This document shows, one piece after another, positions 24,851 through 48,460 of a DNA stretch of 64,000 nt. Location of the stretch: NCBI RefSeq assembly GCF_013009555.1, contig NZ_CP046176.1, positions 62,001 through 126,000 on the forward strand. Reading direction: 5' to 3'. The position numbers and the translations under genes are program-made. Within the stretch, counting starts at the first letter, position 1; every line of letters starts with the position of its first letter. The DNA comes from Phocaeicola dorei. Lineage in GTDB: Bacteria > Bacteroidota > Bacteroidia > Bacteroidales > Bacteroidaceae. Under the pieces are notes generated by a model. The model made no database searches, was not told the DNA's origin, and saw only the letters and a program-made list of their open reading frames with translations.

Positions 24851-25333
24851 ATGGATGCTCTATTTCAAACGCAAAGCAATGAGCTTTCTACTATAACGCA
24901 GAAAGAAAAGCTGTTTAAAGATGCAGAACGGCAGTGGAATACACTGTCTTCCGAGAAAGGAGCGCCCGGAAGAAAAGTTGATTTTGAGATCTATAAAAGC
25001 ATTTTGTATAACCTAGAAATCAGAAAAGTATATTTGGATTCAAAGCTCTCTTTAGAAAAGTTTAGTTCAATAGTCGGCACGAATACGACCTACCTGAGTA
25101 ATGCGGTGAACAACTACTTCGGATGCAACTTCAAGCGGTTGATAAATTCCTACAGGGTGGCTCGCGCCAAGGAGCTGCTGGACGGTAAAGATTGCCCGGT
25201 GAGCGAGCTTTTCAGCCGTTGTGGGTTCGCTTCCAAGAGCGTGTTCTATGTGGCGTTCAAAAAAGTAGTTGGCATGACTCCCCTGCAATATATATCGCAG
25301 AGCCGGAGTCCTTTTATGATTCAACGCAATTAA
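24851..25333 (+). CDS. AraC-type HTH regulator, the only cassette joined to a 5' head
   Basis: 160 residues. Residues 1-75 are a helical head rich in Lys/Glu. Residues 76-95 are encoded by the 62-bp core shared with three other sites and form the first helix-turn-helix (GTNTTYLSNAVNNYFGCNFK). Residues 96-160 form the second HTH (CGFASKSVFYVAFKKVVGMTPLQY) and tail. The architecture resembles the HTH end of larger Bacteroides sensor regulators, without any sensor. Base composition jumps from AT-rich to GC-rich exactly at the core, as expected for an exchangeable 3' end. The stop is 61 bp before the lipoprotein gene it probably controls or is co-transcribed with. Its target is inferred. Confidence 0.88.
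   Translation: MDALFQTQSNELSTITQKEKLFKDAERQWNTLSSEKGAPGRKVDFEIYKSILYNLEIRKVYLDSKLSLEKFSSIVGTNTTYLSNAVNNYFGCNFKRLINSYRVARAKELLDGKDCPVSELFSRCGFASKSVFYVAFKKVVGMTPLQYISQSRSPFMIQRN
25075..25136 (+). repeat. 62-bp core recombination site, copy A
   Basis: The sequence begins CGGCACGAATACGACC and ends ACTTCAAGC, and is identical at 31125-31186 (minus), 40610-40671 (plus) and 48399-48460 (minus). In the plus direction upstream flanks are unrelated between copy A and the others, so the repeat ends sharply on that side. Downstream, homology continues through the regulator tail in copies A, B and D but stops in C. That makes the 62 bp the minimal shared unit and the likely crossover site. Confidence 0.9.
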
Positions 25334-25363
25334 GTCCTTTTATAACAATAAACATTTTGAGTT

Positions 25364-25383
25364 TTTAAATTTATAAATTTAAA
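25364..25383. repeat. 20-bp perfect palindrome in the lipoprotein leader, copy A
   Basis: TTTAAATTTATAAATTTAAA reads the same on both strands and ends 11 bp before the lipoprotein ATG. It recurs unchanged at 30878-30897, 40895-40914 and 48152-48171, always in the same place relative to its gene. It could be an operator or an RNA hairpin near the ribosome-binding site. Confidence 0.85.
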
Positions 25384-25394
25384 GTTTTTCTATT

Positions 25395-28070
25395 ATGAAC
25401 AAAAAATTTTTAAGTGCAATCCTGTTCGGAGCCTTGATGGTTTCTTCAACAGGAACGTTTGTATCTTGTAAAGACTATGATGATGACATCGATCGTATCG
25501 ACAAGGAGTTGACGGAGCTGAAGTCTCAGATCGCAGCTTTACAGACAACAGTTGACAACGGAGACTATGTAACTGGTGTGGCAAAAACTGCTGATGGCAA
25601 GGGTATTACGTTTACTTTTTCTAAAGGAAGTCCTGTCACAGTAACTTTGGATGTGAAAGACGGTGAGCCGGGCAAAGATGCTCAGAAAATTACTTTTGAC
25701 AAAGACGGCCAGATGTTAATTGACAATGAGCCTACTGGCATTTACCCGACTAAAGATGCAGAAAAAGCTCCTGTAAAAATCGAGGGTGGATTCTGGTATA
25801 CTTTAAATGATAAAGGCGAATACGAAAATAGCAATATTCCCGTATCTGGCTTAGCCGTTGCTGGTAGCGAGGCGGACGGATGGACATTGACAGTGATTGA
25901 TGCTAACGGCAACAAACAAGAAGTAAAAGTTCCAACAGCAGCTTCTTTGATGAGCGAATTTGAAATCGTTGGTTTGCTTGGTGATGATAACAAGATAAGC
26001 TCTGATGCTGTCGTATTGAATTATTCAGCAAATAAAGTTATTGCAAAATGGGAAGGTCCTAAAGGTACAATTGCAAAAGATGACTATATCGTTGCAACAG
26101 CTAAAGATCAAAAGACTTTATTGGTTCGTATGGCTCCGTCATCAGTTGACTTTACCGGCCAGTCATTTATTTTGGTAAATAGCAAGGGAAATTCTCAGGA
26201 TTGGCTTGCATTGAACAGTGCTGTAGCTTATAATAAAGTATTGGCCAGAGCTGCTCAGAAAGCAGGATTATATACTTTCTCTTTGGCTCCTACAGTAGTC
26301 AAGAAAGCTGATTACAAAGCTGATGCTTGGAAAGTGGATGGTTCGGACATCAATACGCAAAAACTTGCTTTACAAAATGAGGCAGGAACTTTCACCAGCC
26401 AATTTGGCATTGGAGTTACCCATGATGGTACTAAAATGGATGATGCTACAGTTAAATTAAATGGTAGTACTGTATTAGGCACCGAATCAACTCCTGTTGA
26501 AATCGACTTGAATGTTGATAATAAGATTACTTTTGATGCAGCAAATGCCGTATATGATGCATATATTGAATATTCTAATGACGATGATGTATTGTTTGCT
26601 ATCGATCATGACAATGCTGCTATGACTTTCAAGGCAACTCAGATGCCGGATAGCGATACAAAGGCTGTATTTAAAGTTGTCGTTAGATACTTGAATGTTA
26701 ATGGTAACGTAGCGTCAAAGGATATTTATGTGAAGGTTACCAAGTCTTTAGTTGACGGAGTTGTTTATGAAAGAACTCATAAGATTGTTGCAGATGCTAC
26801 AAAGAACTTCTTCTCTATTGATTTGAAGAGCATGACAGATAAGATGAGTGCTGAAAACCTAGCTGTATTCAACAGAAATGCATTGGTAAATAATACAACA
26901 TTCACTGTAAAGGATGCTAAGGGCGATGTTGTTGCCGGGTTAAATGGTGCTAAAGCTGCTACCCTGGTCGCTAAGGGTATCACTCCTTCTTTCCTTGATA
27001 AGGATGGTAAAGCAGTAACAGACAAGATTGCTGCTGCTACTACTGTGAAATTCGCTATTGATAATGAAAAAGCTGCTTCTAATTTCAAAGTCAATACTCC
27101 GTATACTATTGAAGTAGTTTATGCAGGTGCTGATGCCAAATTAGCTGATGCTACTATTAAGTTGACTCTGACATTACCTGCTTTGAAGGATATGTTCGTT
27201 CATCAGGATGGTATTTGGGTTAATGATATCGCTAGTGCTTATATGGATGAAGCAGCTAATGAAGGTGGTTCTACTGCTGCAAACAAAGCTGCTATCTATA
27301 CAATTAAGAATGCATTCAAGAACCTGGCAACAACTGTTGGTACTTCTACATTTGATGCTAACCTTGACAATGCAACCAAGATTGTTGGTGACTATACATC
27401 TTATGGCTTGGCAGAATTAAGCAATGTGACTTCTACTTCAGCGAAAGTAACTGATATTACTACATGGACTATTAGATTGAAAGATGATTTGAATACCGAT
27501 GGTACAAAGGATTTAAATGATAACGGTACTCAGAAGGGTTACAAACAGAATCTGACTATAGTAATCAGTAATGTCAACTACTTAGGATACTGGTCTTATG
27601 GCGATGAAACTTATAGCTTCACATTGAAAGTTATGAGTCCGATTTTGGAGGGTAAAGTATACGCTGTAGGTAATGAGGTCGTTATTCCTTCTGCTTCTTT
27701 GGATGGATATACAATTAACGACAATCATATCAAGGCTCATACTTACAATACAGAAGTGGTTTACAGTATCTTCTCTGATACAGACAATGGTACTTGGAAG
27801 CGTAAAGAAATCAAAGCTGTAACATTTAAGTCTGGTAACGAAGAATTGTTCACAGTTCCGGTAAATGGTACTGAGTATAAAGCTGCAACTGGTACTCCGG
27901 GTAAGGATGATTACGTAGCAGCTAAGAACGGTTCTCTTACTATAACCAAGGTTTCTGGAACTAGCATTGATACTGAAGTTAAGACTAACATCAAAGTCAC
28001 CGTAACTGATGCTTGGGGTTATGATCTTGATCAAGAAGTTCCCGTTAAGATTACGGTAAAGAAGGATTAA
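25395..28070 (+). CDS. Cassette A surface lipoprotein with PL29-lyase N-terminal-like (DUF4988) region
   Basis: 891 residues. The signal peptide ends TFVSC, and the Cys is followed by KDYDDDID, an acidic surface-export signal of the Bacteroidetes type. A short coiled coil (about 35-55) and a DUF4988-like region follow (GDYVTGVAKTADGKGITF, DGEPGKDAQ, GGFWYTLNDKGEYEN). The rest is Thr/Asp/Lys-rich beta-sandwich-like repeats ending in a strand that contains VKITVKKD. No catalytic motif is recognised. It lies directly downstream of the intact regulator and is the copy predicted to be expressed in this orientation. A surface-layer or adhesin-like role is possible but unproven. Confidence 0.85.
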   Translation: MNKKFLSAILFGALMVSSTGTFVSCKDYDDDIDRIDKELTELKSQIAALQTTVDNGDYVTGVAKTADGKGITFTFSKGSPVTVTLDVKDGEPGKDAQKITFDKDGQMLIDNEPTGIYPTKDAEKAPVKIEGGFWYTLNDKGEYENSNIPVSGLAVAGSEADGWTLTVIDANGNKQEVKVPTAASLMSEFEIVGLLGDDNKISSDAVVLNYSANKVIAKWEGPKGTIAKDDYIVATAKDQKTLLVRMAPSSVDFTGQSFILVNSKGNSQDWLALNSAVAYNKVLARAAQKAGLYTFSLAPTVVKKADYKADAWKVDGSDINTQKLALQNEAGTFTSQFGIGVTHDGTKMDDATVKLNGSTVLGTESTPVEIDLNVDNKITFDAANAVYDAYIEYSNDDDVLFAIDHDNAAMTFKATQMPDSDTKAVFKVVVRYLNVNGNVASKDIYVKVTKSLVDGVVYERTHKIVADATKNFFSIDLKSMTDKMSAENLAVFNRNALVNNTTFTVKDAKGDVVAGLNGAKAATLVAKGITPSFLDKDGKAVTDKIAAATTVKFAIDNEKAASNFKVNTPYTIEVVYAGADAKLADATIKLTLTLPALKDMFVHQDGIWVNDIASAYMDEAANEGGSTAANKAAIYTIKNAFKNLATTVGTSTFDANLDNATKIVGDYTSYGLAELSNVTSTSAKVTDITTWTIRLKDDLNTDGTKDLNDNGTQKGYKQNLTIVISNVNYLGYWSYGDETYSFTLKVMSPILEGKVYAVGNEVVIPSASLDGYTINDNHIKAHTYNTEVVYSIFSDTDNGTWKRKEIKAVTFKSGNEELFTVPVNGTEYKAATGTPGKDDYVAAKNGSLTITKVSGTSIDTEVKTNIKVTVTDAWGYDLDQEVPVKITVKKD

Positions 28071-28097
28071 TTTGATTATTTCTAAACTATAAAAATA

Positions 28098-28184: not shown

Positions 28185-30866
28185 CTATTTACGAGGTTTA
28201 ACAACCATCTTCAATGTAATAGTTACATCATGTCCATAGGAATCCTTACAATTAATAGTCAATGTAGAAGGAACATCTTGTTTCGGATTAGAGCCAATAT
28301 CTGTTTTTATAGCTTCAAAGACATTTGCCTTAGTGAAATCAACTTTGAAGTAGTCTTCTTTACCAGTTGCATCAGAAGTCAACTTAGCACTTTCAATGCT
28401 CAGACTTGATCCATAAGCATCTTTAAGTGCTGTACTAAACAATTTATCTATAGCATTAGTACCCCAGATATGTGCAGTGGTAGGAGCGGCTGCATTATTG
28501 CCATAAGTCAAATTTGTTGAATAAGGCAAGTTAGCATTAGCAGCTAATCCTAAATTTTCGCGAGTAGCCCATGCCCAAGTATGTACTTCCGGTTTATAGA
28601 AGCAGCAGTAAACTGTATTAAATGTTGCAGCTTCTACTATAACATTTTCATATTCACCAGCACTATTTTTCTTTGAAGAAATCTTACCATAATTGTAAAC
28701 AACCTTAGTTGCATGCTCTGTCTTATTATCAATATAAGATTTTACAACTTCAATGCTTTGAGCACCGTTTACTGTTACATCTTTATCTTTATCTCCATCT
28801 TTTACAGAAGAAGCAAATGTTACATTGTATTGGTCAGCTTGGCCCAACCCGAAATTAATCAAGTTTTCAATAGGCATTGCACCCTTAGAAGCTTGACTTG
28901 CAGCCCAATTATCAGCAATCATATAACAATTATAGATGCCGTCAATTACTTGTTTGTCTTTAATGGAGAAGCCTTGTGGTAAAGTGGTTGGAATTTCTTT
29001 AGTCATAGTAACATTTAACGTTGCTAATACAAATCCATCCTCATTTTTGATAGTCAATGTACCATTATATTCCTTACCGTCTTCATATTTCTTCCAGTCT
29101 ACTCCAGTTGGTCTAGTATAAACTTTAACAACTTTGCTGAAATCAACTCTCTCCAAAGTAGCATTTAACATATAGTTTGTATCATAAATCTCATGTCCTT
29201 CTGAGTCTACAAAATATGCATGGAATACAGGTTGGTTATTATCAATCTTATCAGTAGTCCATGTGGCTTGATAAGGTGCGGATAATTTACTTAATGTAAC
29301 AGCTTCTGCTTCTGATTTAGTCATATCTACAAGAGTTGCATCATTTGCAGATGGAGTTACTACCGTATTAACAGTTTCCCATGTAGCAGCTTCTTTACCT
29401 AATTTCACATAGAAAGCTTTACCATCAGGATCAACCAATGTACCATCATAGTTTACAGCATACACACGGAAACCAATGATATCATCAATGATATTATCTC
29501 CATTAATAGTAATTTCTGTAGAAGTACCTTCCACAACGGTATTTAATCCTGTATATTCATAAGAGTTCCAAGCATTGATTTCAGATGGAGCTGACTCTAC
29601 AGCATTTTGGCTATCTAATGTAACATAAATAGCACGAATATTTTTAGGAGCTTCTACTTCATTATCTTTTGTTGACAATGAAATAGTCAATGCCTTACCT
29701 TGAACAGCTGGATAAACAGATTCTCTTTGACGATTATCACCTTGCTTAACGTTTGTATTTGATTTGTCTAAACCAATAACAGTAGTAGATACACCATTTT
29801 TCCATTCTAACTCTTTATATTCTACAGGAGTATTATTTTCAGAAGCAGAATAACGATTGTGTATTTTATTTACATTCTTTTCATTAACAAAGAAGTTCAA
29901 TCCATTTTGTGGAGTATACGCCTGCCAATCCAGAGTTAAGTCATAAGATGAAATAACTTCTCTTGTTTCAGCGGTAGATAAGGTGTTATTTACCTGTACA
30001 GCAAAGAGAATAGCTTTAGTATCATTACCAACTTTGGTTTCTGTTACAGCAGAAAAAGCTTTTTCATCATAATTCTTTAAAGCAACTGTAACTTCCCATA
30101 ATCCATTATTTCCTGCCGCACGGCTTAATAACCCGTTATATTTCTCAACTTTCTGAACAGATAAGAATTCATTCAGATTCTGTCCTTGGCTATTAGTCAA
30201 AGAAATCATTTCTGGAGTCAAGACTGCATTAGTCGGAGACACACGTACTACAAACTTATCTCCTGTTTGAATTTGATTACCTTTGGTGAAGGTAATGGCA
30301 TTTGTAATACCTTCACTAAATACATTTTCTTTTTCAATAGCAGTAGAAAAAGTCAGTCCATCGCCTGTAGGATTAGCAGAATACGAAGCCACCAGTTCTA
30401 CACTAGTAACCATATCAGCAATCTTACCAACAATGTCTTCTACTTTCTTAGTAGCAGCATCAACTTTCTCTGCCATATCTTTTAATGCAGCATCTGTGGA
30501 TTCTTCTACTTCCTTTTTTAATGTCGCAATTTCTGCTTGAACAGCTTTGATCGCTTCTGCCTTTGCATCTGCAACAGCCTTGTCTGCAGCGGCTTTTGCA
30601 GCAGCGGCAGCATCACCAGCAGCTTTTGCAGCAGTTTCAGCGGCAGTTGCCTTAGCAAGAGCATCGCTTGCATCTTTTGCGGCAGTAGTTAAAGCAGCCT
30701 GCAAAGTAGCGATCTGAGAAGTCATGTCCTCCTTAGTCGCCAGTTTGTTAATTTGTTCCTGCAAATTGTCTATGTCATCATCATAGTCTTTACAAGATAC
30801 AAATGTTCCTGTCGAAGAAACCATCAAGGCTCCGAACAGGATTGCACTTAAAAATTTTTTGTTCAT
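28185..30866 (-). CDS. Cassette B surface lipoprotein with long Ala/Lys coiled coil
   Basis: 893 residues. The first 33 residues, including lipobox and acidic export signal, equal those of cassette A. After that the sequence departs: residues about 35-150 form an Ala-rich heptad coiled coil (AAAKAAADKAVADAKAEA and similar) unlike the short coils of A, C and D. The remainder is beta-rich with DxD and NG turns and no enzyme motif. It ends VKPRK. No regulator head or promoter of the copy A type stands in front of it, so it is predicted silent until inverted. Function unknown; a surface filament or shielding protein is a guess. Confidence 0.85.
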   Translation of the reverse strand: MNKKFLSAILFGALMVSSTGTFVSCKDYDDDIDNLQEQINKLATKEDMTSQIATLQAALTTAAKDASDALAKATAAETAAKAAGDAAAAAKAAADKAVADAKAEAIKAVQAEIATLKKEVEESTDAALKDMAEKVDAATKKVEDIVGKIADMVTSVELVASYSANPTGDGLTFSTAIEKENVFSEGITNAITFTKGNQIQTGDKFVVRVSPTNAVLTPEMISLTNSQGQNLNEFLSVQKVEKYNGLLSRAAGNNGLWEVTVALKNYDEKAFSAVTETKVGNDTKAILFAVQVNNTLSTAETREVISSYDLTLDWQAYTPQNGLNFFVNEKNVNKIHNRYSASENNTPVEYKELEWKNGVSTTVIGLDKSNTNVKQGDNRQRESVYPAVQGKALTISLSTKDNEVEAPKNIRAIYVTLDSQNAVESAPSEINAWNSYEYTGLNTVVEGTSTEITINGDNIIDDIIGFRVYAVNYDGTLVDPDGKAFYVKLGKEAATWETVNTVVTPSANDATLVDMTKSEAEAVTLSKLSAPYQATWTTDKIDNNQPVFHAYFVDSEGHEIYDTNYMLNATLERVDFSKVVKVYTRPTGVDWKKYEDGKEYNGTLTIKNEDGFVLATLNVTMTKEIPTTLPQGFSIKDKQVIDGIYNCYMIADNWAASQASKGAMPIENLINFGLGQADQYNVTFASSVKDGDKDKDVTVNGAQSIEVVKSYIDNKTEHATKVVYNYGKISSKKNSAGEYENVIVEAATFNTVYCCFYKPEVHTWAWATRENLGLAANANLPYSTNLTYGNNAAAPTTAHIWGTNAIDKLFSTALKDAYGSSLSIESAKLTSDATGKEDYFKVDFTKANVFEAIKTDIGSNPKQDVPSTLTINCKDSYGHDVTITLKMVVKPRK

Positions 30867-30877
30867 AATAGAAAAAC

Positions 30878-30897
30878 TTTAAATTTATAAATTTAAA
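30878..30897. repeat. 20-bp perfect palindrome, copy B
   Basis: Same palindrome and same distance from the lipoprotein start as at 25364-25383, on the minus-strand cassette. Confidence 0.85.
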
Positions 30898-30927
30898 AAC
30901 TCAAAATGTTTATTGTTATAAAAGGAC

Positions 30928-31185
30928 TTAATTGCGTTGAATCATAAAAGGACTCCGACTCTGCGATATATATTGCAGGGGAGTCATGCCAACTACTTTT
31001 CTGAATGCCACATAGAACACGCTCTTGGAGGCAAACCCGCAACGGCTGAAAAGCTCGCTCACCGGGCAATCTTTACCGTCCAGCAGCTCCTTGGCGCGAG
31101 CCACCCTGTAGGAATTTATCAACCGCTTGAAGTTGCATCCGAAGTAGTTGTTCACCGCATTACTCAGGTAGGTCGTATTCGTGCC
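30928..31185 (-). pseudogene. Headless 3' regulator cassette B (AraC-type HTH)
   Basis: 86 codons stay open from the first full codon of the core to the stop and encode a tail that differs from that of copy A by about one residue (AFRKVV for AFKKVV). There is no head: upstream of the core the sequence is unrelated to 24851-25074. A GTG inside the core could in principle start a 75-residue protein, but it lacks a plausible ribosome-binding site. I read it as a stored 3' end that becomes functional when inversion joins it to the head at 24851. Confidence 0.75.
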
Positions 31186-31186
31186 G
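31125..31186 (-). repeat. 62-bp core recombination site, copy B (inverted)
   Basis: Exact inverted copy of 25075-25136. The next 14 bases outward (31187-31200) match the flank of copy C at 40596-40609 in 12 of 14 positions, so the segment between B and C is bounded by a 76-bp imperfect inverted repeat. Confidence 0.9.
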
Positions 31187-31462
31187 GAAACGAAAGAATA
31201 TGTATAATGCTGATAAACAATGATATAGCAAATTCAGTAGAAGAAATATATCTTATTGCAAAATAGATAGATTCTAAATACTTTTCAAAGTATCCTTTAA
31301 AGGATAGAATGCCAATATATATGGACAGAAATAGGCGATTATCATCCATTAATAGGAAATAGAAAAACTTGTCATAAGCAGAAAAAACAAATCCTTTATT
31401 TGCTTTGTTTGTCATTTACTAATATCTTTGTTTCATCATTCATTCTAGAACCGCAACAAAAT

Positions 31463-33073
31463 ATGAAATACCCTATTGGAATACAGAGTTTTGACCAAAT
31501 CCGTGAAGATGGCTATGTATATGTGGATAAGACCGGCTTGATTTACAACTTGGTAACACAAGGCAAGACTTATTTCTTGAGCCGTCCACGCCGTTTTGGC
31601 AAAAGCCTGCTGGTAAGTACCCTTGCCTGTTATTTCCAGGGACGCAAAGATTTGTTTGCCGGACTGGAAATCGACGGATTGGAAAAGGACTGGTATGAGT
31701 ATCCTATCTTCCGTATAGACTTTAATGGAGGACTGTATACACAACCCGGAATTCTGGAGGCTACCATTGAAGGCTATTTAGGGAACTGGGAAGATATTTA
31801 TGGCAAGAATCCCAATTATACAACCATAGGAACCCGTTTCATTGAAATACTTCGCCGGGCTTATGAACAGACAGGGCGGCGTGCGGTGGTTCTGATTGAT
31901 GAATATGACAAACCTATTTTGGATGTATTAGATACGGAAGCTTGTTTTTATGATGATTATGGAAAGCAAGTTCTGTTGGAGAACCATAACCGGGAAATAT
32001 TGAAATCCTTTTATTCTACCTTTAAAGGAGCCGATCAATACTTGAGATTCGTATTGTTGACCGGAGTAACAAAGTTTTCCCAAGTAAGTGTTTTCAGTGG
32101 ATTTAACCAGCCTAAGGATATCAGTATGGATGAACGGTACGAAGCCTTGTGCGGTATCACCCAGAATGAGCTGGAAGCATTTTTCGAAGAACCCACCATA
32201 CAGTTGGCTGCTAAATATCAGTACACAGTGAAAGAAATGAAGGAACTTCTCAGACGGCAATATGACGGATATCATTTTGGAGAGAGGATGACCGACATTT
32301 ACAATCCGTTCAGCATTCTTAATGCTTTTGACAGTATGGCAATTCGTGATTACTGGTTCTCTACAGGTACTCCCACCTATTTGGTTCGTCTGCTGCAACA
32401 CAGCCGCGAGCAGATAAACGAACTTGCCGGACGTTATTATGTTCCCTCTTTGTTTGTGGATTATAAGGCTGATGTGGAACAGCCTCTACCCATGATTTAT
32501 CAGAGCGGATATCTCACTATTAAAGAATATAATAGACGTATGGGAACTTATCTGCTCGATTTTCCCAATAATGAGGTGCGTAAAGGGTTCTTGTCCGTAT
32601 TGGCAGCACATTATTTGAAACCCGGAGGTGGAGAGGTCAACAGTTGGATTATCGATGCTGTCACTTGCCTTGAGCAAGGGAACACCTCCGCTTTTTGTGA
32701 TTCTCTGACCGCCTTTCTTGCAAGCATCCCGTATGACTCTCACACTTCCTTGAAGGAATTGGATATGACTGAGAAACATTTCCAATACACTTTTTATCTG
32801 ATTCTCCGTTTGATAGGAGTTTATTGCCGTGCAATCCATTGTGAGAATCGCCAGAGCTTCGGACGAGTGGACTGCATATTGGAAATGGACGAATATGTTT
32901 ACATTTTCGAATTCAAGATGGACGGAACAGCAGAGGAGGCTTTACAGCAAATAGCAGAGAAAGGCTATGCCCGATCTTATTTGACCGATAACCGTAAAAT
33001 AGTCTGTATCGGGGTGAATTTTTCTTCCCTTACACGTACTGTAGAAGAATGGAAGGAGATAATTTACAGGTAA
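31463..33073 (+). CDS. AAA-ATPase-like protein with C-terminal PD-(D/E)XK nuclease-like domain
   Basis: 536 residues. The start is MKYPIGIQSFDQIREDGYVYVDKTG, the standard opening of the PF09820 AAA-ATPase_like family, in two parts. The P-loop is RPRRFGKSLL (about 42-51) and Walker B is VVLIDEYDKP (about 148-157). The C-terminal domain (about 430-536) carries nuclease-superfamily traits: FGRVDCILEMDEYVYIFEFKMDG with the D...ExK core (split around residue 480). These genes are abundant in Bacteroidales accessory regions; their role is not established. ATG at 31463 is chosen because the family begins there; the in-frame upstream stretch is not conserved-looking. Confidence 0.9.
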   Translation: MKYPIGIQSFDQIREDGYVYVDKTGLIYNLVTQGKTYFLSRPRRFGKSLLVSTLACYFQGRKDLFAGLEIDGLEKDWYEYPIFRIDFNGGLYTQPGILEATIEGYLGNWEDIYGKNPNYTTIGTRFIEILRRAYEQTGRRAVVLIDEYDKPILDVLDTEACFYDDYGKQVLLENHNREILKSFYSTFKGADQYLRFVLLTGVTKFSQVSVFSGFNQPKDISMDERYEALCGITQNELEAFFEEPTIQLAAKYQYTVKEMKELLRRQYDGYHFGERMTDIYNPFSILNAFDSMAIRDYWFSTGTPTYLVRLLQHSREQINELAGRYYVPSLFVDYKADVEQPLPMIYQSGYLTIKEYNRRMGTYLLDFPNNEVRKGFLSVLAAHYLKPGGGEVNSWIIDAVTCLEQGNTSAFCDSLTAFLASIPYDSHTSLKELDMTEKHFQYTFYLILRLIGVYCRAIHCENRQSFGRVDCILEMDEYVYIFEFKMDGTAEEALQQIAEKGYARSYLTDNRKIVCIGVNFSSLTRTVEEWKEIIYR

Positions 33074-33370
33074 GATTTAGTCATAGTCAGCCTAAAGCGT
33101 TAAACAAAAGATTGCCTTCCACTATTTTTTATGGGAATATACCGGTAAGAATGTTCATGCTGTTGCCGGCATAACACATTTAATTTTCATCTTTTTATCA
33201 TTTTATTTTTCTTTTTGCTAAGAATGAATTATTTTCGCAGCCGAACACAAGTTTAATTTCTTACCGACAATAAGCAGACATGCTTTAATCCTCGACCAAT
33301 TCAACTTGTCCTCATTTTAATTTTAACGGATAAGCTGATGTTTTGTCCCTCACTATTATAAAATAAAAGA
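33074..33370. other. Intergenic region before the fimbrillin pair
   Basis: About 300 bp, AT-rich, probably holding the promoter of the fimbrillin operon. I find no convincing -33/-7 pair at normal spacing and no other structure. Confidence 0.5.
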
Positions 33371-35679: not shown

Positions 35680-35701
35680 CCCATTCATATACTAGAAAAG
35701 G

Positions 35702-35744
35702 GCATTCACACTTCTTGACAATATATGCTTGAGAGTGTGAATGC
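35702..35744. terminator. Hairpin after the fimbrial operon
   Basis: GCATTCACACT (35702-35712) pairs perfectly with 35734-35744. There is no strong T run, so terminator function is uncertain. The left arm motif GGCATTCACAC recurs at 39772 after the second ATPase gene. Confidence 0.5.
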
Positions 35745-39758: not shown

Positions 39759-40037
39759 GATACGGAATAAAGGCATTCACACCCCTATTTTATGGTACGC
39801 CTATCAGCTGGGAGATACACAATGGATTACAACATGACACGTTTGGAATTGTATATCAGTTCCATCGCTTTTTTCAGGAACCTTCCGGAATAAGAAATCT
39901 TACCCTGGGGAAGCTTCATGCCGCTTTCCCTTTATAACGACAGGTACAGTTCACCAATGGGCATTTGTTACTGAAATTCCTCATTGACCGGCTTTTTAAT
40001 AACCCAAACCTAATTGCCACAAGGGTATGACATTCAT

Positions 40038-40361
40038 TTATCCGGCTTCTTCAATGTACAGGCTATAATCTTCAATATTATTACGGCTGGCGCTCAATAT
40101 GGCGGCAATTTCAGATTCCAAAGTATGGTTGATAATCTGTTGCAATCGCACATCGAAATCATCTTCCAAAACGAAAGGATAATAACCTCTCTTTAAATAA
40201 TTAGTAAAATATACCAAGGGGCGGAAATCTTTCGGCAATTCGACTTTGTGTTGCAGGATATCTGATAAAGAATAAGTATTGATGGAAATACGGTGAAACA
40301 GTTGGAGATATCCCTGAAAGAGAGGCTCTGCATTTGATACATAACGGTACGGCGGCTTAAA
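40038..40361 (-). pseudogene. Remnant of an AAA ATPase with DUF4143-like domain, frameshifted
   Basis: Read on the minus strand the region encodes RRTVMYQMQSLSF, then after a one-base deletion near 40311 continues in a second frame as YLQLFHRISINTYSLSDILQ, and on as ELPKDFRPLVYFTNYLKRGYYPF and RLQQIINHTLES to YIEEAG and a stop at 40038. This is the junction between AAA_14 and DUF4143 in Bacteroides ATPases that normally exceed 350 residues. Both the P-loop end and the nuclease end are missing. From 39759 to 40037 there is nothing I can assign apart from possible further decayed coding sequence. Confidence 0.75.
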
Positions 40362-40609
40362 TCGGCCCCCCTTTTATCTGCACACTCTTGCTGTACATAT
40401 ATTTGCTTATTTTGCACTATTAAGGTGCATTTTGAAATAATAGAAAACCTTTCCTATCTTCAATAAATGTAATTATTCGTGCAAACTGTCCTCCGTTGAT
40501 AATATATAAAAATTTATTTAGACCTTCTATAGATAACCAATAGACAGAGTAGTTTTTTATTTGGTAGTTACATTGTTGATTTATAGTGATATAAGTATTC
40601 TTTTGTTTT
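40362..40609. other. Intergenic region upstream of core site C
   Basis: About 250 bp of AT-rich sequence without a gene. Nothing resembles the regulator head present at 24851-25074. Confidence 0.5.
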
Positions 40610-40671
40610 CGGCACGAATACGACCTACCTGAGTAATGCGGTGAACAACTACTTCGGATGCAACTTCAAGC
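40610..40671 (+). repeat. 62-bp core recombination site, copy C
   Basis: Exact copy of 25075-25136 in the same orientation. Homology to copy A stops one base after the AAG codon at its end, and returns only at AAGTCCTTTTATAAC before the lipoprotein gene. Confidence 0.9.
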
Positions 40672-40877
40672 AGCTTCTTAATAAATATCGTGTTGAGTAT
40701 GCAAAGTCCTTATTACTAGAGGGTACGTATTCAACCAGTTCTCTTTTTAGGAAGTGTGGGTTTGCATCCCAAAGCGTTTTTTATGCCGCATTTCATAAAG
40801 TGGTCGGCGCATCTCCCTTGCAGTTTCTATATAAAGCACCATCCAAACGCGGAAAAAGATTTAAAGTCCTTTTATAA
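40611..40877 (+). pseudogene. Headless 3' regulator cassette C with a divergent HTH tail
   Basis: 89 codons remain open from the core. Unlike B and D, the part after the core is clearly different from copy A: LLNKYRVEYAKSLLLEGTYS and CGFASQSVFYAAFHKVVG against NSYRVARAKELLDGKD and CGFASKSVFYVAFKKVVG. It uses AT-rich codons instead of GC-rich ones and ends in KRGKRFKVLL by reading into the shared leader. It would give a regulator with the same first HTH but a different second HTH after recombination with the head at 24851. Confidence 0.75.
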
Positions 40878-40894
40878 CAATAACATTTTGAGTT

Positions 40895-40914
40895 TTTAAA
40901 TTTATAAATTTAAA
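40895..40914. repeat. 20-bp perfect palindrome, copy C
   Basis: Unchanged copy of the palindrome at 25364-25383, 11 bp before the cassette C lipoprotein ATG. Confidence 0.85.
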
Positions 40915-40925
40915 GTTTTTCTATT

Positions 40926-43900
40926 ATGAACAAAAAATTTTTAAGTGCAATCCTGTTCGGAGTCCTTATGGTCACTTCAACAGGAACATTTGTATCTTGT
41001 AAGGATTACGATGACGACATCGACCGCTTGGATCAAGAAATATCCAATGTGAAAGATGCAATCAAGGCCCTTGAAGACAAAGTAGGCTCAGGCAAATATG
41101 TCGAAAGCTGTACTCCGTTCACTGATGGTAATGGTGGTTATGAAATCAAATTCAGTGATGGAGAGACCATTAAATTATACAATGGTGCAAAAGGAGAACA
41201 AGGTGAACCAGGCAAACCAGGTACTCCGGGTACTTCTGCTGATGATTATGTAGTATCAGTAGAAGAAGGTGAGTCAGCTTATGAATTAGTTATTACTTAC
41301 GCTAATGGCACTAAAAAGACTATCAGTATGCCTAAAGCTACTTCTGTAGTTAGCGGAGTTAAGTTTATCCCTACTTTCCTTTCTGAAGGTGAAGCTGCCA
41401 GAATCCATTTCCCTACCATCGTTACTGATAGTGTGGCAGGTAAAACAGAGATTGCAGGTGCAGATTGGAGTGAAAGTAACTTTAATACATTTAAAATCGT
41501 TTACTCAGGTAAGGCAGACGTGAAGTATCAGGTAAATCCTAACAGCGTATCATTCAAGGATATGGAAGTGGTAGGATTTGTTCGTGATACTGCTGAAATA
41601 TGGAACTACAATACAAATAACAAGAATTGGGAATTGTTCAATGCCGGACAAAAGCTATACACTGATGGAAAAATCACCGTTGATTCTTATAAAGAAGGAC
41701 ATGGTATGTTAAACTTCCGTGTAAAGGATTGGGCTTTTGCTGAGCAATCTAATCTGGACGAAAGAACAGTATATTCATTGAGAATTAAGAACAATGACCA
41801 AATCGTTCATTCTGATTTTGTTCCCGCCAAGCATGAAGTAATTTTGCAGAAGAACGTACATTTGGTTAAAGTCGCTGATGCATTTGACCAAACTAACGCT
41901 CCTGCTCAGATTAAAAATGCAATTGCTCCTAACAAGGTAAATTATAGAGAATTCATCGAAGATGAATATTATCTTAACACCTTGAATCCGACTGGTACTG
42001 AAGAGGCTAAATTAAAAGCTTATCAAGCAGATAAAGCCAAGTTCGAAGCCAATGCTGAAAACCAGTTATATAAGGGAGATACTGAATCTAAAGATGATGC
42101 AAACCGTATTGTTGTAGAACTGAATTACACGGGCGATGGACATTCAAAAGATTTAAGAGATATCGTAACTTCTTTCTTTGATAACCGTAGTGGAAAAGCC
42201 AAAGATGCTCAGTATCCTTTGATGGATAATGGTTTTGATGACTATTCATTGGTGTTTGAACCGGTTGACTTCTACTATGATGGTGTTAACCAGACTAAAC
42301 GTTACTTGGAAGTTACCAAAGATGGTGTTGCTACAGTAAAACAAACTCCGGACCCGATTTGGGGTGCAGAAACTGATGCCAGTCACACAGCTGCTATAGA
42401 CAGAACTCCTATTGTTCGTGTGAAACTGGTAGCACCGGGTGAAGACAATGGTAATGTAGTTAAAACAGCAATCATCAAGATTCACATTGTACGCAAGACA
42501 GTTGTTCCTGAAATTAATGTTACAGAAACAAAAGATGTCACTCTGAAACATATCAATCAAGTTCTTGATATGGATATGGATAAGATATTCAACCATAAAG
42601 ATGTACAGTTGAGCAAAGACGAATTCCGTAAGACTTATGAGTTTGTTCCTGAATTTGCGACAGCAGACGAGGCTAAACAACACGCTGTATATGCATGGGA
42701 CGGAAAAGATAATAAAGACTATTCATTAGATCCGAATTTTGTTCCTGAAGAATATAATCAGCTGTTCGTTACAGTGAAGAATACAGCATTCTCTCGTCAT
42801 GACGATCACGACGTTTACACTGTTAAGGGTACATACAAGCCAAATGCTGATCATAAGGGATTACCTGACATCCATGTTACTTATACTATCAATGTGAAGT
42901 ATCCGAATGTGGTTGCTCCTGAAAAGACCAAGTTGAACTGGGTAGATGATTCTTACTTCATTGCTCACGGTAGATATGATAACTTTGATGCTCCTAAAAC
43001 TTATGAAATGGTTGCAGCATTGAATGACGAATTCGATTTGATCAACTATAATCCTTATAAGGGTCAGACTCATGATAAGGATTGGGCTAGAGCTACCTTG
43101 TCATTCGAATTGGTTGACCAGCATAATAATGCATCTAAGATAGCTGACGGTCACAATTCCGGTATTCGTTTGTATCAAGGTAAAGACAATAAGTGGTATA
43201 TCGCCTTGGAAGCAACAGACGCAGGACGTGCTTGGATCAATGCTGCTGACGCTAAAGATTTGAAGAAGATCAAAATGCGTGCTGTAGTAAGCTTCAACGA
43301 AGATGTTGACGGATTGTATGGTACTTGCAACAAGGAAGCCAATGCTCATAACAAGTATGCTAAAGAAGATTACAATAACTTCTCTTGCGATACTATCAAT
43401 ATGGTAAACAATACTCCTTGGGCTAAAGATCATACTACTAATTATACTGGTGCTGCTGCTCCTGAAAATGGACGTTCTACAGTGGTTATCGATGAATTTG
43501 AAGTTGCATTTGTAACTCCGATGGTATTCCACGCTTACGAAGCAGGTCCTTTGTATGACAAGTACCAAGAAGCTGAAAATACAGTATCATTGAAGGATGC
43601 ATTCTTCTTGTCAGATTATCTGTGGTCTGAAGGTGCTCAGGCACAATTCAATAACAACCATGTTATCTATGACCACAAAGATATGGCTGAGAATAATACT
43701 TTGGTTCAAACTGGTAATAATGCAGGCTGGTCACAAAAACTGGTAGTTACCAACAACGTATTCGATGTCAATACAACAGTTAACTTCCAGGTTTCTAAGG
43801 CATACTTTGCTGATGGAAGTGAATTGGATGCTGAAAACATGAATAAGATCAAGCTTGATAATACTAAGCAGACTATCACATGGATTAACAATGGTGAAGA

Positions 43901-44042
43901 TATTGCCCAACCGTTTACTATTGATGTAGAAGTTTGTGTAAATCACAAGTGGGGCGGTATCTGCGAGCATACTTGGAAGGGAGATCTCGGACATTCTGTC
44001 GGAACTATCCAAATTCAGGTTAAAAAGCACAATGATAAGTAA
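40926..44042 (+). CDS. Cassette C surface lipoprotein (largest), DUF4988-like, short collagen-like stretch
   Basis: 1038 residues, the longest of the four. The leader differs from A by a few residues (GVLMVTS for GALMVSS) but keeps the lipobox and CKDYDDDID. A short coil (DRLDQEISNVKDAIKALED) is followed by a DUF4988-like segment and a brief GxY run (GEQGEPGKPGTPG). The remainder is rich in Asp, Asn, Lys and aromatic residues, with many calcium-site-like Dx[DN]x[DN] patterns, and ends VKKHNDK. No enzyme motif is seen. It lacks a regulator head. It is followed by a terminator and then a C11 protease gene. Confidence 0.85.
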   Translation: MNKKFLSAILFGVLMVTSTGTFVSCKDYDDDIDRLDQEISNVKDAIKALEDKVGSGKYVESCTPFTDGNGGYEIKFSDGETIKLYNGAKGEQGEPGKPGTPGTSADDYVVSVEEGESAYELVITYANGTKKTISMPKATSVVSGVKFIPTFLSEGEAARIHFPTIVTDSVAGKTEIAGADWSESNFNTFKIVYSGKADVKYQVNPNSVSFKDMEVVGFVRDTAEIWNYNTNNKNWELFNAGQKLYTDGKITVDSYKEGHGMLNFRVKDWAFAEQSNLDERTVYSLRIKNNDQIVHSDFVPAKHEVILQKNVHLVKVADAFDQTNAPAQIKNAIAPNKVNYREFIEDEYYLNTLNPTGTEEAKLKAYQADKAKFEANAENQLYKGDTESKDDANRIVVELNYTGDGHSKDLRDIVTSFFDNRSGKAKDAQYPLMDNGFDDYSLVFEPVDFYYDGVNQTKRYLEVTKDGVATVKQTPDPIWGAETDASHTAAIDRTPIVRVKLVAPGEDNGNVVKTAIIKIHIVRKTVVPEINVTETKDVTLKHINQVLDMDMDKIFNHKDVQLSKDEFRKTYEFVPEFATADEAKQHAVYAWDGKDNKDYSLDPNFVPEEYNQLFVTVKNTAFSRHDDHDVYTVKGTYKPNADHKGLPDIHVTYTINVKYPNVVAPEKTKLNWVDDSYFIAHGRYDNFDAPKTYEMVAALNDEFDLINYNPYKGQTHDKDWARATLSFELVDQHNNASKIADGHNSGIRLYQGKDNKWYIALEATDAGRAWINAADAKDLKKIKMRAVVSFNEDVDGLYGTCNKEANAHNKYAKEDYNNFSCDTINMVNNTPWAKDHTTNYTGAAAPENGRSTVVIDEFEVAFVTPMVFHAYEAGPLYDKYQEAENTVSLKDAFFLSDYLWSEGAQAQFNNNHVIYDHKDMAENNTLVQTGNNAGWSQKLVVTNNVFDVNTTVNFQVSKAYFADGSELDAENMNKIKLDNTKQTITWINNGEDIAQPFTIDVEVCVNHKWGGICEHTWKGDLGHSVGTIQIQVKKHNDK

Positions 44043-44096: not shown

Positions 44097-44130
44097 AGTC
44101 TTTACAATCGTTTATCCAATTATATTGTGT

Positions 44131-45246
44131 ATGAAGTATATATATGCTGTCTGTTTTCTGTTATTAGTATGTAGCTGTCATAAAGAGAATGACACCCCTG
44201 TTGTTTTACCTGCACGGACACTATTGGTTTATCTGGGAGGAGATAATAATCTTGATGCGGAAACCTATGACAAACTTGTTCAAATTAAAAATGGATGGCA
44301 AGACGGAACAGATGGAAAAATAATAGTGTATCAGGATACACCATTTAAGGACTCTCCACGATTGATGGAAATTGATGGAAAAAGTGAGAAAGGCTATATT
44401 ACCATACATACCTATGACCAAGAAAACTCAGCCTCCCCCCAAGTACTTAAACGAGTTATAAACGACGTAACTCGGCTTTATCCTGCTAAAAGCTACGGTT
44501 TAATCGTGTTTTCCCATGGCAGTGGCTGGCTTCCTCCACATACATTGGTTAATGGCTCGCGGTCTATCATCATCGATAATGATAATGAAATGGAAATAAC
44601 AGATTTTGCTATGGCCCTCCCGGACCATTTATTTGAATTCATAATCTTTGAAGCATGTAATATGGCAGGTATTGAGGTGGCTTATGAATTAAGAAATAAA
44701 GCAGCATATATCATGGCTTCCTCTGCCCCAGTAGTATCTCCGGGATTCACTCCTATCTATGCCGGCAGTATTTCCTGTCTGCTTGAAGAAGCTGCTGATT
44801 TGCAAAGATTTGCAGAAAATTATTTTCATTATTGGAATTTGATGGAAGGCGATAAACGTTCTGCTACCATTAGCATAATAAAAACTGCCGGATTATCAAA
44901 TTTAGCGAATTTGATACGACAGATCAATACAGAAATATCTGGTTCTTTCCTCCCGGTCGGTAACCTTCAAAATTATGATGGAGTTTTAAAAGCCCCATTC
45001 TATTTTTTTGATTTCGCTCAATGTTATCAATCATTATCAGATGAAAACACATACAATGCACTTCAAGAGTGTATCAGCCAATGTGTGGTTTACAAAAGAA
45101 ATACTCCATTTTATGCTACGGAAGAAGGAACATTCCCTATCACAGCATTTTCAGGTATGACCACTTTTATCATGCAGAGAGAACTTAATGACTTAAATGA
45201 GGAATATACAAAACTACAATGGTATAAAGATACTAATACACATTAG
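44131..45246 (+). CDS. C11 (clostripain-family) cysteine protease lipoprotein
   Basis: 371 residues from ATG at 44131; an upstream TTG start at 44125 is possible. The signal ends LLLVCSCHKEND, a lipobox Cys. The caspase-like fold is shown by LLVYLGGDNNLD, the catalytic His in IVFSHGSGW (about 129) and the catalytic Cys in IIFEACNMAGIEVA (about 176). Clan CD C11 enzymes cut after Arg or Lys and often self-activate. It stands directly downstream of cassette C, between core sites C and D. It may process surface proteins, perhaps the neighbouring lipoprotein (inference). Confidence 0.9.
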   Translation: MKYIYAVCFLLLVCSCHKENDTPVVLPARTLLVYLGGDNNLDAETYDKLVQIKNGWQDGTDGKIIVYQDTPFKDSPRLMEIDGKSEKGYITIHTYDQENSASPQVLKRVINDVTRLYPAKSYGLIVFSHGSGWLPPHTLVNGSRSIIIDNDNEMEITDFAMALPDHLFEFIIFEACNMAGIEVAYELRNKAAYIMASSAPVVSPGFTPIYAGSISCLLEEAADLQRFAENYFHYWNLMEGDKRSATISIIKTAGLSNLANLIRQINTEISGSFLPVGNLQNYDGVLKAPFYFFDFAQCYQSLSDENTYNALQECISQCVVYKRNTPFYATEEGTFPITAFSGMTTFIMQRELNDLNEEYTKLQWYKDTNTH

Positions 45247-45517: not shown

Positions 45518-45539
45518 ATATTATATACCAATTTTAATA

Positions 45540-48140
45540 TTATTCGAATGCAATTGTAGCGGTTGTCACAATGCCTGCGAAGTCAGTGAATGTTAGAACT
45601 AAAGTACCCTTATCACCGATTTGGGCATTTACCAATTTAATACCTTCGCTATCTGAAACGGCAGTAACATTATTCAAGCCGTCTACGCCATAAGCTACTT
45701 TAACTTTGTCTGCAGCAGTAGAATTAGATTCTTGAACAGTTACACCTTCGATTGCAGGAATGCTATTGCATACAGCAGATTCTCCCTTACCATACTGTAA
45801 TGCCAAACCATTCTTCTTATTATTAGCAGTAGTAAGTTTAGCGATAGTAAAGTCCGCACCAACCTTAGCAGTTGCACCAGCTACATTATTAGTATAGTAA
45901 ACCAACTTAGCACCTTCAAAGATAGACATGATCTTAGTAGTGAACTTAGAAGACTTAACAGTCAAGTCATTTACACCTCCAAATGTATAAGAAGCTACAA
46001 CACCCAATTCATTAACTTTCAAAGTCTTATTAGTATTTTGGATATTCTGTAGAGTTACAGAAGCACTTGATTGGTTTGCTATAACATCCTTATTATCCAC
46101 TTTGTCAATTGCCAACTTGATATCATTTACAGCAGCCTTTGTATTGGGAAGGAATGCTCTTGTGAAGTTTACCACAGGTGTATTAGCAACTGAAGCTGTC
46201 AAACGGGCAACAAACTTACCATCTTCCCAAGCAGTTGTGTTCTTGAACAGTTTATCCCAAGCAGGCAGAGCAACTGTTACAGGAATTGTAACTGTCTTGA
46301 TTGTGCTAACGGCAGTACCTGATTTTTGATCCTTGATTGTCAAAGTCAAATTATAGTTACCTGGCTTAGCCTTAGCATTAACATTACCATTTACGGCAAT
46401 CTTCATCCAACGGATATTGCGAGCATCTGAGTTAGCTAATACTACTTCACCATTATTTGCTGATCCATCTACAAATTTATCAGCAGGTTTACCATCCTTA
46501 TCAGTATAGAATGTTACATTAGTAGAAGTCAAGTCATTTGCCAAGAAATTAACTTGATCTTTAACATTTTCAACAGTAATCTGAGTTAACTTATTAATTT
46601 CTTCAGCATTAGCAGCAGACAAGCTAGAGAAGGCATCCTTCAAATCTACAACAATAGCATTTAAATCTCCGCTGTCATCCAAACCTAATTCATAAGTAGT
46701 AGCAGCGATAGTTTGAGTATCATCAGATTTGACACCACCAATCTTCAATGTTATGTTTTTGGTTGTTTCCTTTCCGTCAACACTCATGATATGGACAGTA
46801 GCAATCACTTCTTCTGCTTTTGCAGATTCTTTAATAGACAGATTCATACCATTAGCAGAAACGCCTAACTTTTCAGCTTTTGCTGTCTGAGTACCTTCAA
46901 AAGCAATGTAACCATCATAGAACTTAGAATCTGAGCAAACTAATGATGAAGAGCCAACAGGTACTTCAATATTACTGTTGTTGTCCAGTGCTTTGTTATG
47001 ATTGTTTCCTATTGATTTCAGGTTAGTTGTACTCAAAGTAATACCATTTCCAACTGTTGTAGCATTTGTAATGGCATTATCTTTAGCCACTTTTACAGCA
47101 ATTGTATAATCGGTATAAACTTTACCATTAATACGTAAAGCGTACAATTTTGCATTATAGGTGGAATTATCCCATGCACCAAATACTTTTGTAATATTAT
47201 CTTTAGTAACATCACTCTTCAAAGTGATAGCTAAATTCCATTTACCATTAGTTGCAGCAGCTCTAGGAGCGGTTGCAGCACCATCAGTACTATTCGGAGT
47301 GGCAACGATATTAACGGGAGCGATATCACCTTTTGTGTCAATTAATTCAAGTGTCATGCCTGATAAATCCACACTGGCAGGAGTAACAGATAATAATCCT
47401 TCAGCAGGTGCTATTTGTCCAATCATCAACTGGTTGGCTGCAATATTTCCTTTGGGTCCTTTCCAATCAATCTTTCCATTGCTCTTATAGCCCCAATCAA
47501 GCCCAGTTGCAGAAGAGGTGGTGGTAACAGCTCCGAATGTTAGATCGCCAATCATGATTTCTGTAATTGTAGAAGAGGCAGTCGGTAATTTGATAACCTT
47601 TTCACCATCAGCACTATATACTGTCAATGTATAGCCTGTAGCTTCAGTTCCAGTAACAGTAATACCAGATACAGGGATATTTGTATTTTCATATTCACCC
47701 TTTTCATTCAAAGTGTACCAATATCCACCTTCTGCTTTGACAGGAGCTTTTGCAGCATCTTTGGCAGGGAAAATACCTGTACCTTTACCATCAATCTTCA
47801 ATTCACCAGTCTTTTCATCAACAGTAACTTGCTGAGCATCTTTACCCGGAGTTCCAGGAGCACCAGCTTCACCATCTTTTACATCCAAAGTAACGGTTAC
47901 AGTACTTCCTTTAGAGAAAGTAAAAGTCATTCCTTTGCCATCAGCAGTCTTGGTGATACCTGTTACATAATCACCATTCTCTACTTTTGTCTGCAAAGCT
48001 GCCAGCTGAGATTTCAAATCGGTCAACGTAGCGTTGATCTCATCGATTTCGTCATCATAGTCTTTACAAGATACAAACGTTCCTGTTGAAGAAACCATCA
48101 AGGCTCCGAACAGGATTGCACTTAAAAATTTTTTGTTCAT
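45540..48140 (-). CDS. Cassette D surface lipoprotein, DUF4988-like, paralog of cassette A
   Basis: 866 residues with the same leader as cassette A up to CKDYDDEID. Resemblance to A continues for roughly 190 residues (GDYVTGITKTADGKGMTF, GTPGKDAQQVTVD, GGYWYTLNEKGEYEN) and then fades, giving a conserved membrane-proximal part and a variable outer part. The outer part is Thr/Ala/Asn-rich with no catalytic motif and ends in TTATIAFE. It lacks a regulator head and is predicted silent. It is the cassette closest to the recombinase gene. Confidence 0.85.
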   Translation of the reverse strand: MNKKFLSAILFGALMVSSTGTFVSCKDYDDEIDEINATLTDLKSQLAALQTKVENGDYVTGITKTADGKGMTFTFSKGSTVTVTLDVKDGEAGAPGTPGKDAQQVTVDEKTGELKIDGKGTGIFPAKDAAKAPVKAEGGYWYTLNEKGEYENTNIPVSGITVTGTEATGYTLTVYSADGEKVIKLPTASSTITEIMIGDLTFGAVTTTSSATGLDWGYKSNGKIDWKGPKGNIAANQLMIGQIAPAEGLLSVTPASVDLSGMTLELIDTKGDIAPVNIVATPNSTDGAATAPRAAATNGKWNLAITLKSDVTKDNITKVFGAWDNSTYNAKLYALRINGKVYTDYTIAVKVAKDNAITNATTVGNGITLSTTNLKSIGNNHNKALDNNSNIEVPVGSSSLVCSDSKFYDGYIAFEGTQTAKAEKLGVSANGMNLSIKESAKAEEVIATVHIMSVDGKETTKNITLKIGGVKSDDTQTIAATTYELGLDDSGDLNAIVVDLKDAFSSLSAANAEEINKLTQITVENVKDQVNFLANDLTSTNVTFYTDKDGKPADKFVDGSANNGEVVLANSDARNIRWMKIAVNGNVNAKAKPGNYNLTLTIKDQKSGTAVSTIKTVTIPVTVALPAWDKLFKNTTAWEDGKFVARLTASVANTPVVNFTRAFLPNTKAAVNDIKLAIDKVDNKDVIANQSSASVTLQNIQNTNKTLKVNELGVVASYTFGGVNDLTVKSSKFTTKIMSIFEGAKLVYYTNNVAGATAKVGADFTIAKLTTANNKKNGLALQYGKGESAVCNSIPAIEGVTVQESNSTAADKVKVAYGVDGLNNVTAVSDSEGIKLVNAQIGDKGTLVLTFTDFAGIVTTATIAFE

Positions 48141-48151
48141 AATAGAAAAAC

Positions 48152-48171
48152 TTTAAATTTATAAATTTAAA
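48152..48171. repeat. 20-bp perfect palindrome, copy D
   Basis: Unchanged copy of the palindrome at 25364-25383, before the cassette D lipoprotein. Confidence 0.85.
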
Positions 48172-48201
48172 AACTCAAAATGTTTATTGTTATAAAAGGA
48201 C

Positions 48202-48459
48202 TTAATTGCGTTGAATCATAAAAGGACTCCGACTCTGCGATATATATTGCAGGGGAGTCATGCCAACTACTTTTCTGAATGCCACATAGAACACGCTCTT
48301 GGAGGCAAACCCGCAACGGCTGAAAAGCTCGCTCACAGGGCAATCTTTACCGTCCAGCAACTCTTTCGCGCGAGCCACTCTGTAAGAATTTATCAACCGC
48401 TTGAAGTTGCATCCGAAGTAGTTGTTCACCGCATTACTCAGGTAGGTCGTATTCGTGCC
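48202..48459 (-). pseudogene. Headless 3' regulator cassette D (AraC-type HTH)
   Basis: 86 open codons from the core to the stop. The protein is identical to that of cassette B across the tail, but several codons differ by silent changes (for example around 48338-48385), so B and D are not a very recent duplication. No head is present upstream. It is read as a stored 3' end like cassette B. Confidence 0.75.
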
Positions 48460-48460
48460 G
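48399..48460 (-). repeat. 62-bp core recombination site, copy D (inverted)
   Basis: Exact inverted copy of 25075-25136, 85 bp from the end of the tyrosine recombinase gene. The outer flank is unrelated to the flanks of A, B and C apart from a few bases. Confidence 0.9.

Follow-up and report, generated by a model that had tools for sequence, protein, structure and literature searches.

A candidate inversion system that exchanges surface lipoproteins together with half of a regulator in Phocaeicola dorei

Why should four large lipoprotein genes at one locus of the human gut bacterium Phocaeicola dorei each follow the end of the same AraC-type regulator gene, when the beginning of that gene occurs there once? 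The locus lies in a 64,000-nucleotide stretch of DNA, referred to here as the window (bases 62001-126000 of a single-contig 5.63-Mb chromosome, NZ_CP046176.1), and is bounded by a gene for an iron-sulfur (Fer4) protein (23475-24254) and by ruvB (49764-50819). A sequence-only reading of the window had proposed a four-cassette DNA inversion system, or shufflon, for surface lipoproteins. The analysis below favors a recombinase-driven shufflon with one expression site, to which we assign a probability of roughly 0.88.

Four cores, one head and a neighboring recombinase

Exact matching recovered four identical 62-bp cores, A to D (Table 1), which alternate in orientation (+, -, +, -) as first described and bound several segments, as expected of a multiple-inversion system with its three or more sites. 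No further 100% copy of the 62-mer was found elsewhere in the chromosome, where the two next-best matches (81% and 87%) cover part of it. To the left of the cores, the flanks are mutually unrelated: their 48-58% identity over 200 nt is what a forced alignment gives. On the right-hand side the likeness is 94-97% among A, B and D, and 55-56% between these three and C. Within the core, A and C have 20 of 20 codons in common; outside it, where the residue is the same, 12 of 32 codons agree (naive probability approximately 3e-9). Given this drop, the identity of cores A and C is not due to chance. Every core is followed in the same order by a regulator 3' end, a leader of 48-61 nt and a large lipoprotein gene, and the cassettes have in common the lipoprotein N-terminus MNKKFLSAILFG[A/V]L..SCKDYDD, so that the near-identical signal peptides reported from the sequence were found again. 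Repeats of the same orientation are spaced by 15,535 (A to C) and 17,274 (B to D) nucleotides, in agreement with the segment sizes given earlier.

The regulator head is found only at core A, while cores B, C and D open headless 3' copies of the same regulator, and all four tails are open in the reading frame of the head. Upstream of the head lies a match to TTG-N19-TAnnTTTG, which we take to be the Bacteroides promoter type; this pattern has 10 matches on both strands of the whole window, and none in the 500 nt that precede B, C and D when each is read in its own direction. The open reading frame (ORF) and the promoter scan therefore confirm that head and promoter accompany the first core alone. 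By its anatomy the locus thus has one constant, expressed part and several in-frame partners that are presumably silent, as in a shufflon. The same distribution is seen in related genomes. The promoter was present at all seven heads found and at none of 15 silent sites; the 30-mer is identical in the window, P. vulgatus, P. massiliensis, G016 and G020 and varies in G068 and G075, and no head was found in G005.

The assembled regulator matches HTH_18 (2.2e-18) and HTH_AraC (4.5e-11) in Pfam and has the C-terminal double helix-turn-helix of the AraC family, with an HTH_18 score of 66.7 bits against a cut-off of 33.6. In the reading frame the recombination site encodes V-G-T-N, in the turn of the first helix-turn-helix as placed from the HTH_18 match, and both recognition helices therefore travel with the cassette.

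Just outside core D, the outermost core, lies a gene for a tyrosine recombinase, which the sequence-only reading had not named when it proposed an inversion system. Searches of Pfam and NCBIfam gave general tyrosine-recombinase matches alone. The closest relatives in a scan of named genomes, which may omit P. dorei, are those of P. vulgatus ATCC 8482 and P. sartorii JCM 17136 (98% each). The position of the gene and its co-occurrence with the site, described below, are those of a dedicated shufflon enzyme, and the protein is thus the presumed invertase.

The site and its junctions in related genomes

Across 13 sites from five genomes, the invariant sequence is CGGCACG followed by AATACKACC, and the left arms vary; this 7-bp core with a conserved right arm and a variable left arm is the architecture of the sfx sites recognized by the Rci recombinase. 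In all species compared, identity between copies within a genome begins at the first C of CGGCACG, with the exceptions of one or two chance bases in three pairs and of some P. massiliensis copies with common left flanks. At the recombinase-side site the left arm, TAGTATY, is an inverted copy of the right arm, at 8/9 positions in P. massiliensis and 5/9 here. The six P. massiliensis copies have their first 24 bases in common and differ from base 25, and the minimal site is therefore shorter than 62 bp. The 62-bp core is thus real as an identity within this locus, but as a conserved site it shrinks to the approximately 21 bp that are invariant across species. This exact 21-mer was detected in seven of the 61 genus genomes, at 21 places, and its reversed control at none. 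Both P. vulgatus cores have one common substitution relative to the window cores, and those of P. massiliensis are 76-77% like the window cores and alike among themselves; this species-wise likeness amounts to concerted evolution.

Recombinase and site go together from one genome to the next. Eight of the 61 genomes have a recombinase relative of at least 74% identity: the seven with the site, and G020, in which the head contig breaks off directly before the first base of the site and the recombinase contig within about one base of it. Beyond these eight, the flanks of five recombinase homologs among the other 53 genomes were read. Two homologs of 66-68%, in G009 (L138) and G006 (L139) respectively, adjoin a variant site core, CGGGACG, followed by a regulator tail; two others have short repeats of 18-23 nt only. 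In G033 (L141, 1-8473) a 54% recombinase adjoins two large inverted lipoprotein genes with leaders matching at 98%, and no regulator match was found beside the pair, which is perhaps an ancestral form. In P. massiliensis DSM 17679 (L042, L043) two contigs each hold one part of the recombinase gene, and additional integrase-like ORFs adjoin the C-terminal part; the six-site shufflon of that species may therefore be frozen.

Comparison with P. vulgatus bears on whether cassettes change places. The P. vulgatus locus has two sites. The left flank of its head site is 98.5% like that of A, and the right flank is 93.3% like that of C and 54.8% like that of A; the left flank of its recombinase-side site is 97.0% like that of D. 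Orthologs of lipoprotein C (95.6%) and of the adjacent clostripain (97.9%) lie at the matching position. The P. vulgatus head is therefore joined to a C-type tail rather than to A, and lipoprotein C and clostripain follow the promoter in that species but lie apart from it in the window, so that head-cassette junctions differ between two single-contig genomes of related species. Nucleotide synteny with P. vulgatus breaks at 25136, 40609 and 31188, each at most 2 bp from a core edge. In P. massiliensis six alternating sites extend over 49 kb. The proposal of a multi-cassette inversion system with one expression head is well supported by these comparisons.

Database proteins give a complementary view. 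A search of 5.8 billion proteins with the regulator gave 207 matches at E up to 1e-25, of which the best 120 were examined; the counts that follow refer to these. The junction motif is present in 93, and a full head and tail in 71, with 27 tail groups. A head 100% identical to that of the window is joined to an A/B/D-type tail in P0002, and to full-length tails of no fewer than four clearly different types in P0028, P0030, P0042/P0049 and P0053. The P0028 and P0042 tail types also follow P. vulgatus-type heads, and together with the P0053 type they follow heads of the P. massiliensis or G016 type; among the matches listed, the P0030 type has the window-type head only. The silent left flank on the B side likewise occurs with several tail alleles (P0081-P0085, P0092, P0093, P0101 and P0104).

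As a separate observation, P0030 and P0052 look like reciprocal hybrids, in which the window head or tail is combined with paralog-type regulators, and one of the tails involved is that of the paralog at 5439 kb; they apparently reflect either inter-locus exchange or an artefact.

Proposed mechanism and competing explanations

We propose that the constant head consists of the promoter and the first 74-75 regulator codons, ending in the turn of the first helix-turn-helix, and that it would be the sole place from which cassettes are transcribed. Each cassette would supply the site, the regulator remainder with both recognition helices, the leader and an S-layer-like (surface-layer-like) lipoprotein. 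The recombinase would exchange strands within or next to CGGCACG between inverted sites, and inversions of 6, 8, 9.5 or 23 kb would place any one of the four cassettes in frame behind the head. A single exchange would then swap the surface lipoprotein and the DNA-reading part of the regulator together, and such switching is presumably ongoing in this strain. Simulation gave 16 reachable arrangements, with each cassette at the head in four, B and D one step away and C two, in keeping with the earlier statement that successive inversions can bring each cassette to the head. Every inversion keeps the alternation of sites, and the cassettes lie in two of the three blocks. The A x C and B x D deletions that had also been foreseen were right in size (15,535 and 17,274) but are probably disfavored, because the sites combine a fixed core and right arm with variable left arms, as do those of Rci, and because they alternate in the three readable genomes (this one, P. 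vulgatus and P. massiliensis). By analogy, this suggests inversion-only behavior that would protect the array from deletion.

Several observations weigh against this interpretation. Synteny with P. vulgatus also breaks away from the cores, at 45256, 37550 and 48043, and the P. vulgatus passenger block directly follows the clostripain gene with no core between; the difference between the two loci also needs the gain or loss of cassettes. The junction differences are between species, with one assembly representing this strain. The P. massiliensis contig has runs of N between sites, so that its site order may rest on scaffolding. Some of the database fusions are plainly chimeric (P0111 and P0088), for which reason that line of evidence is supportive only. 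At the head site the left and right arms form a poor inverted repeat (3/9), and strand exchange in CGGCACG is therefore proposed by inference only. An 18-mer of the site is found in 9 of 399 family genomes; three of these belong to other genera and have one copy apiece. Lastly, A, B and D have hundreds of homologous bases, through which RecA-type recombination could contribute.

Of the competing explanations, the one that survives best is a machine that was once active and is now frozen, with A permanently expressed. It overlaps the shufflon reading, so that their odds need not sum to one, and we consider it improbable: the split recombinase gene of P. massiliensis indicates that freezing can happen, but here the ORF is full length (372 residues), the recombinase matches that of P. 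vulgatus at 98%, and the four cores have stayed identical. Another account has duplicated units recombining through RecA-dependent homology or gene conversion, with the recombinase a bystander and no programmed switching, and it could draw on homology arms as long as 592 nt (91% identity) and 418 nt (98%). This account is quite unlikely given that the left edge falls at the same base in every species, save for the exceptions described above, that cassette C has only the 62-bp core in common with the others, and that the recombinase follows the site between genomes. An ordinary lipoprotein multigene family with its own unrecognized promoters, in which the core is a mere conserved domain, is highly implausible: the conserved leader before each lipoprotein could hold an unusual promoter, but the strict promoter is absent near the silent copies, the headless tails start at a synonymously identical site with unrelated left flanks, and tail C stands behind the head in P. 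vulgatus.

If the recombinase-driven shufflon is accepted, the exchange might also switch the DNA-binding specificity of a transcription factor, with a constant N-terminal part and alternative recognition-helix halves that each move with their own surface protein, so that coat and regulator change at once, possibly including five unlinked paralogous loci that share the leader. We raise this idea tentatively and think it rather doubtful.

The coordinates of the locus and of the unlinked segments are collected in Table 1. At 98.5% identity, the passenger stretch 31195-37550 is closer to P. vulgatus than any other matched stretch longer than 1 kb (87.0-96.7%), a likeness that suggests recent transfer.

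Table 1. Features of the candidate shufflon (window coordinates) and of unlinked segments elsewhere in the chromosome
Feature	Position	Strand	Basis or remark
Head promoter	24782-24811	+	-33 TTG 24782-24784, 19-nt spacer, -7 TACTTTTG 24804-24811; pattern scan
AraC-type regulator as assembled, 160 aa	24851-25333	+	constant head 24851-25074; exchangeable DNA-reading tail 25075-25333
Core A	25075-25136	+	recombination site CGGCACG AATACGACCTACCT at 5' end
Leader, cassette A	25334-25394	+	
Lipoprotein A, 891 aa, currently behind head	25395-28070	+	ORF, DUF4988, AlphaFold model of stacked beta domains
Lipoprotein B, 893 aa, presumably silent	28185-30866	-	ORF
Leader, cassette B	30867-30927	-	
Regulator tail B, headless	30928-31186	-	holds core B 31125-31186 (-)
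Middle block X2, neither end with cassette	31187-40609		AAA-ATPase/PD-(D/E)XK, Mfa-like fimbrillin pair, VapE-like protein and ATPase as passengers
Regulator tail C, headless, diverged	40610-40877	+	holds core C 40610-40671 (+)
Leader, cassette C	40878-40925	+	
Lipoprotein C, 1038 aa, presumably silent here	40926-44042	+	ORF; ortholog behind head in P. vulgatus
Clostripain-family (C11) putative lipoprotein, travels with cassette C	44125-45246	+	Pfam Peptidase_C11; lipoprotein signal judged by eye
Lipoprotein D, 866 aa, presumably silent	45540-48140	-	ORF
Leader, cassette D	48141-48201	-	
Regulator tail D, headless	48202-48460	-	holds core D 48399-48460 (-)
Tyrosine recombinase, 372 aa, presumed shufflon invertase	48546-49664	-	Pfam Phage_integrase, Phage_int_SAM_5, Arm-DNA-bind_5
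Five unlinked invertible-promoter-like segments	G000:C1 18849-19052, 206918-207122, 278613-278818, 403323-403526, 5439581-5439786		inverted repeats ATCTCTTRNYAAGAGAT

Surface proteins, unlinked paralogs and relation to known systems

Pfam (E up to 0.01) identified DUF4988 in lipoproteins A, C and D and nothing in B; at the same threshold, no SusD or TonB-dependent receptor domains were found in the cassettes. The AlphaFold model of lipoprotein A (mean predicted local distance difference test score, pLDDT, 82.8; predicted template modeling score, pTM, 0.50) comprises an N-terminal helix followed by many beta strands in stacked domains. Its matches to Ig-like, cadherin-like and S-layer chains are weak, and from the model a fair guess is that these lipoproteins are S-layer-like. 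The last 33-36 nt of the leader, including the ATG, are identical in all 15 cassettes of five genomes despite differing tails. As the leader end stays the same while the tails differ, we doubt that tail differences serve to recognize different leaders. Immediately 5' of the lipoprotein ATG lies an AT-rich element of approximately 33 nt, and the 33-mer pattern occurs in eight of the 61 genus genomes.

The same leader and signal sequence were found at five further places in the genome, each behind an intact regulator. At all five a segment of 204-212 bp between inverted repeats ATCTCTTRNYAAGAGAT lies just before the regulator. The genome has six such segments; the sixth (5591349-5591556, L125) precedes a DUF3575 gene, whose product may be a partner of the lipoproteins in the outer membrane. 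It is perhaps comparable to Bt1926, which the available text of PMC12578637 gives as the predicted barrel partner of the S-layer protein Bt1927. A -7-like box occurs only on the strand pointing away from the regulator at 5/5 loci here and 5/5 in P. vulgatus, and likewise points away at 9/9 P. massiliensis loci with repeats (a tenth has none) and at the 2/2 examined in G020, which has more. The strict -33/-7 pair was not found in the five segments of this genome. Judged from the -7 box by itself, these loci are apparently in the OFF state; one fixed-ON, content-switching locus thus apparently coexists with several OFF promoter-flip loci.

In the R64 shufflon, one constant part is joined to exchangeable C-termini of one pilus protein; here, by contrast, the swapped unit is the DNA-reading half of a regulator plus the lipoprotein gene downstream of it. 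One expression site, to which silent surface-protein genes are brought by inversion, is a feature of Mycoplasma vsa/Vpma and Campylobacter fetus sapA. These systems move the 5' expression element or the surface-protein gene and are not known to split a regulator, unlike the present locus. Variation of vsa is named in the accessible part of PMC11852207. From that same text, the present locus resembles R64 (Rci, sfx) in its several sites, adjacent tyrosine recombinase gene, 7-bp core, and conserved right and variable left arms, and the inversion-only behavior of Rci is attributed to the fixed core and right arm with variable left arms of sfx. The recombinase described here carries Arm-DNA-bind_5 and SAM_5 domains and is likened to Rci by site architecture. 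Multi-site inversion of outer-surface genes in gut Bacteroidales is also described for the SusC/SusD shufflon of B. fragilis (Tsr0667) in the portions available of PMC11852207 and PMC12632263; in contrast, the cassettes here lack SusC/SusD domains and the crossover lies within a regulator gene. The BT1927 S-layer of B. thetaiotaomicron likewise involves large, inversion-controlled surface lipoproteins with several homologs per genome (available text of PMC12548429, PMC12578637 and PMC12118408), and the five unlinked paralogs are likened to it by their invertible-promoter-like segments. By description, the BT1927 promoter flips on and off, whereas the present locus keeps its promoter in place and exchanges what lies behind it. 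The head promoter is not itself set between inverted repeats: around it (24255-24851) three 9-mer inverted matches only were found, and a ATCTCTTA-type repeat is absent from the window.

Shufflons and phase-variable S-layer lipoproteins are therefore already known. A shufflon whose crossover splits a regulator and which carries such lipoproteins was not found in the literature searched, the coverage of which was incomplete. New here are the split first helix-turn-helix, the sfx-like asymmetric site, and the five unlinked paralogous pairs, each preceded by an invertible-promoter-like segment that points away. Inversions of 6-23 kb with exchange inside a gene may be missed by tools designed for short invertible promoters. 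With its invariant 21 bp, the site allows junction states to be counted in metagenomes that already exist, through reads with CGGCACGAATACKACCTACCT. A comparable phase-variable S-layer lipoprotein of B. thetaiotaomicron promotes resistance to phage and complement, as stated in PMC12548429. If our interpretation is true, the joint exchange of a coat protein and the DNA-reading half of a regulator would constitute a combinatorial surface switch.

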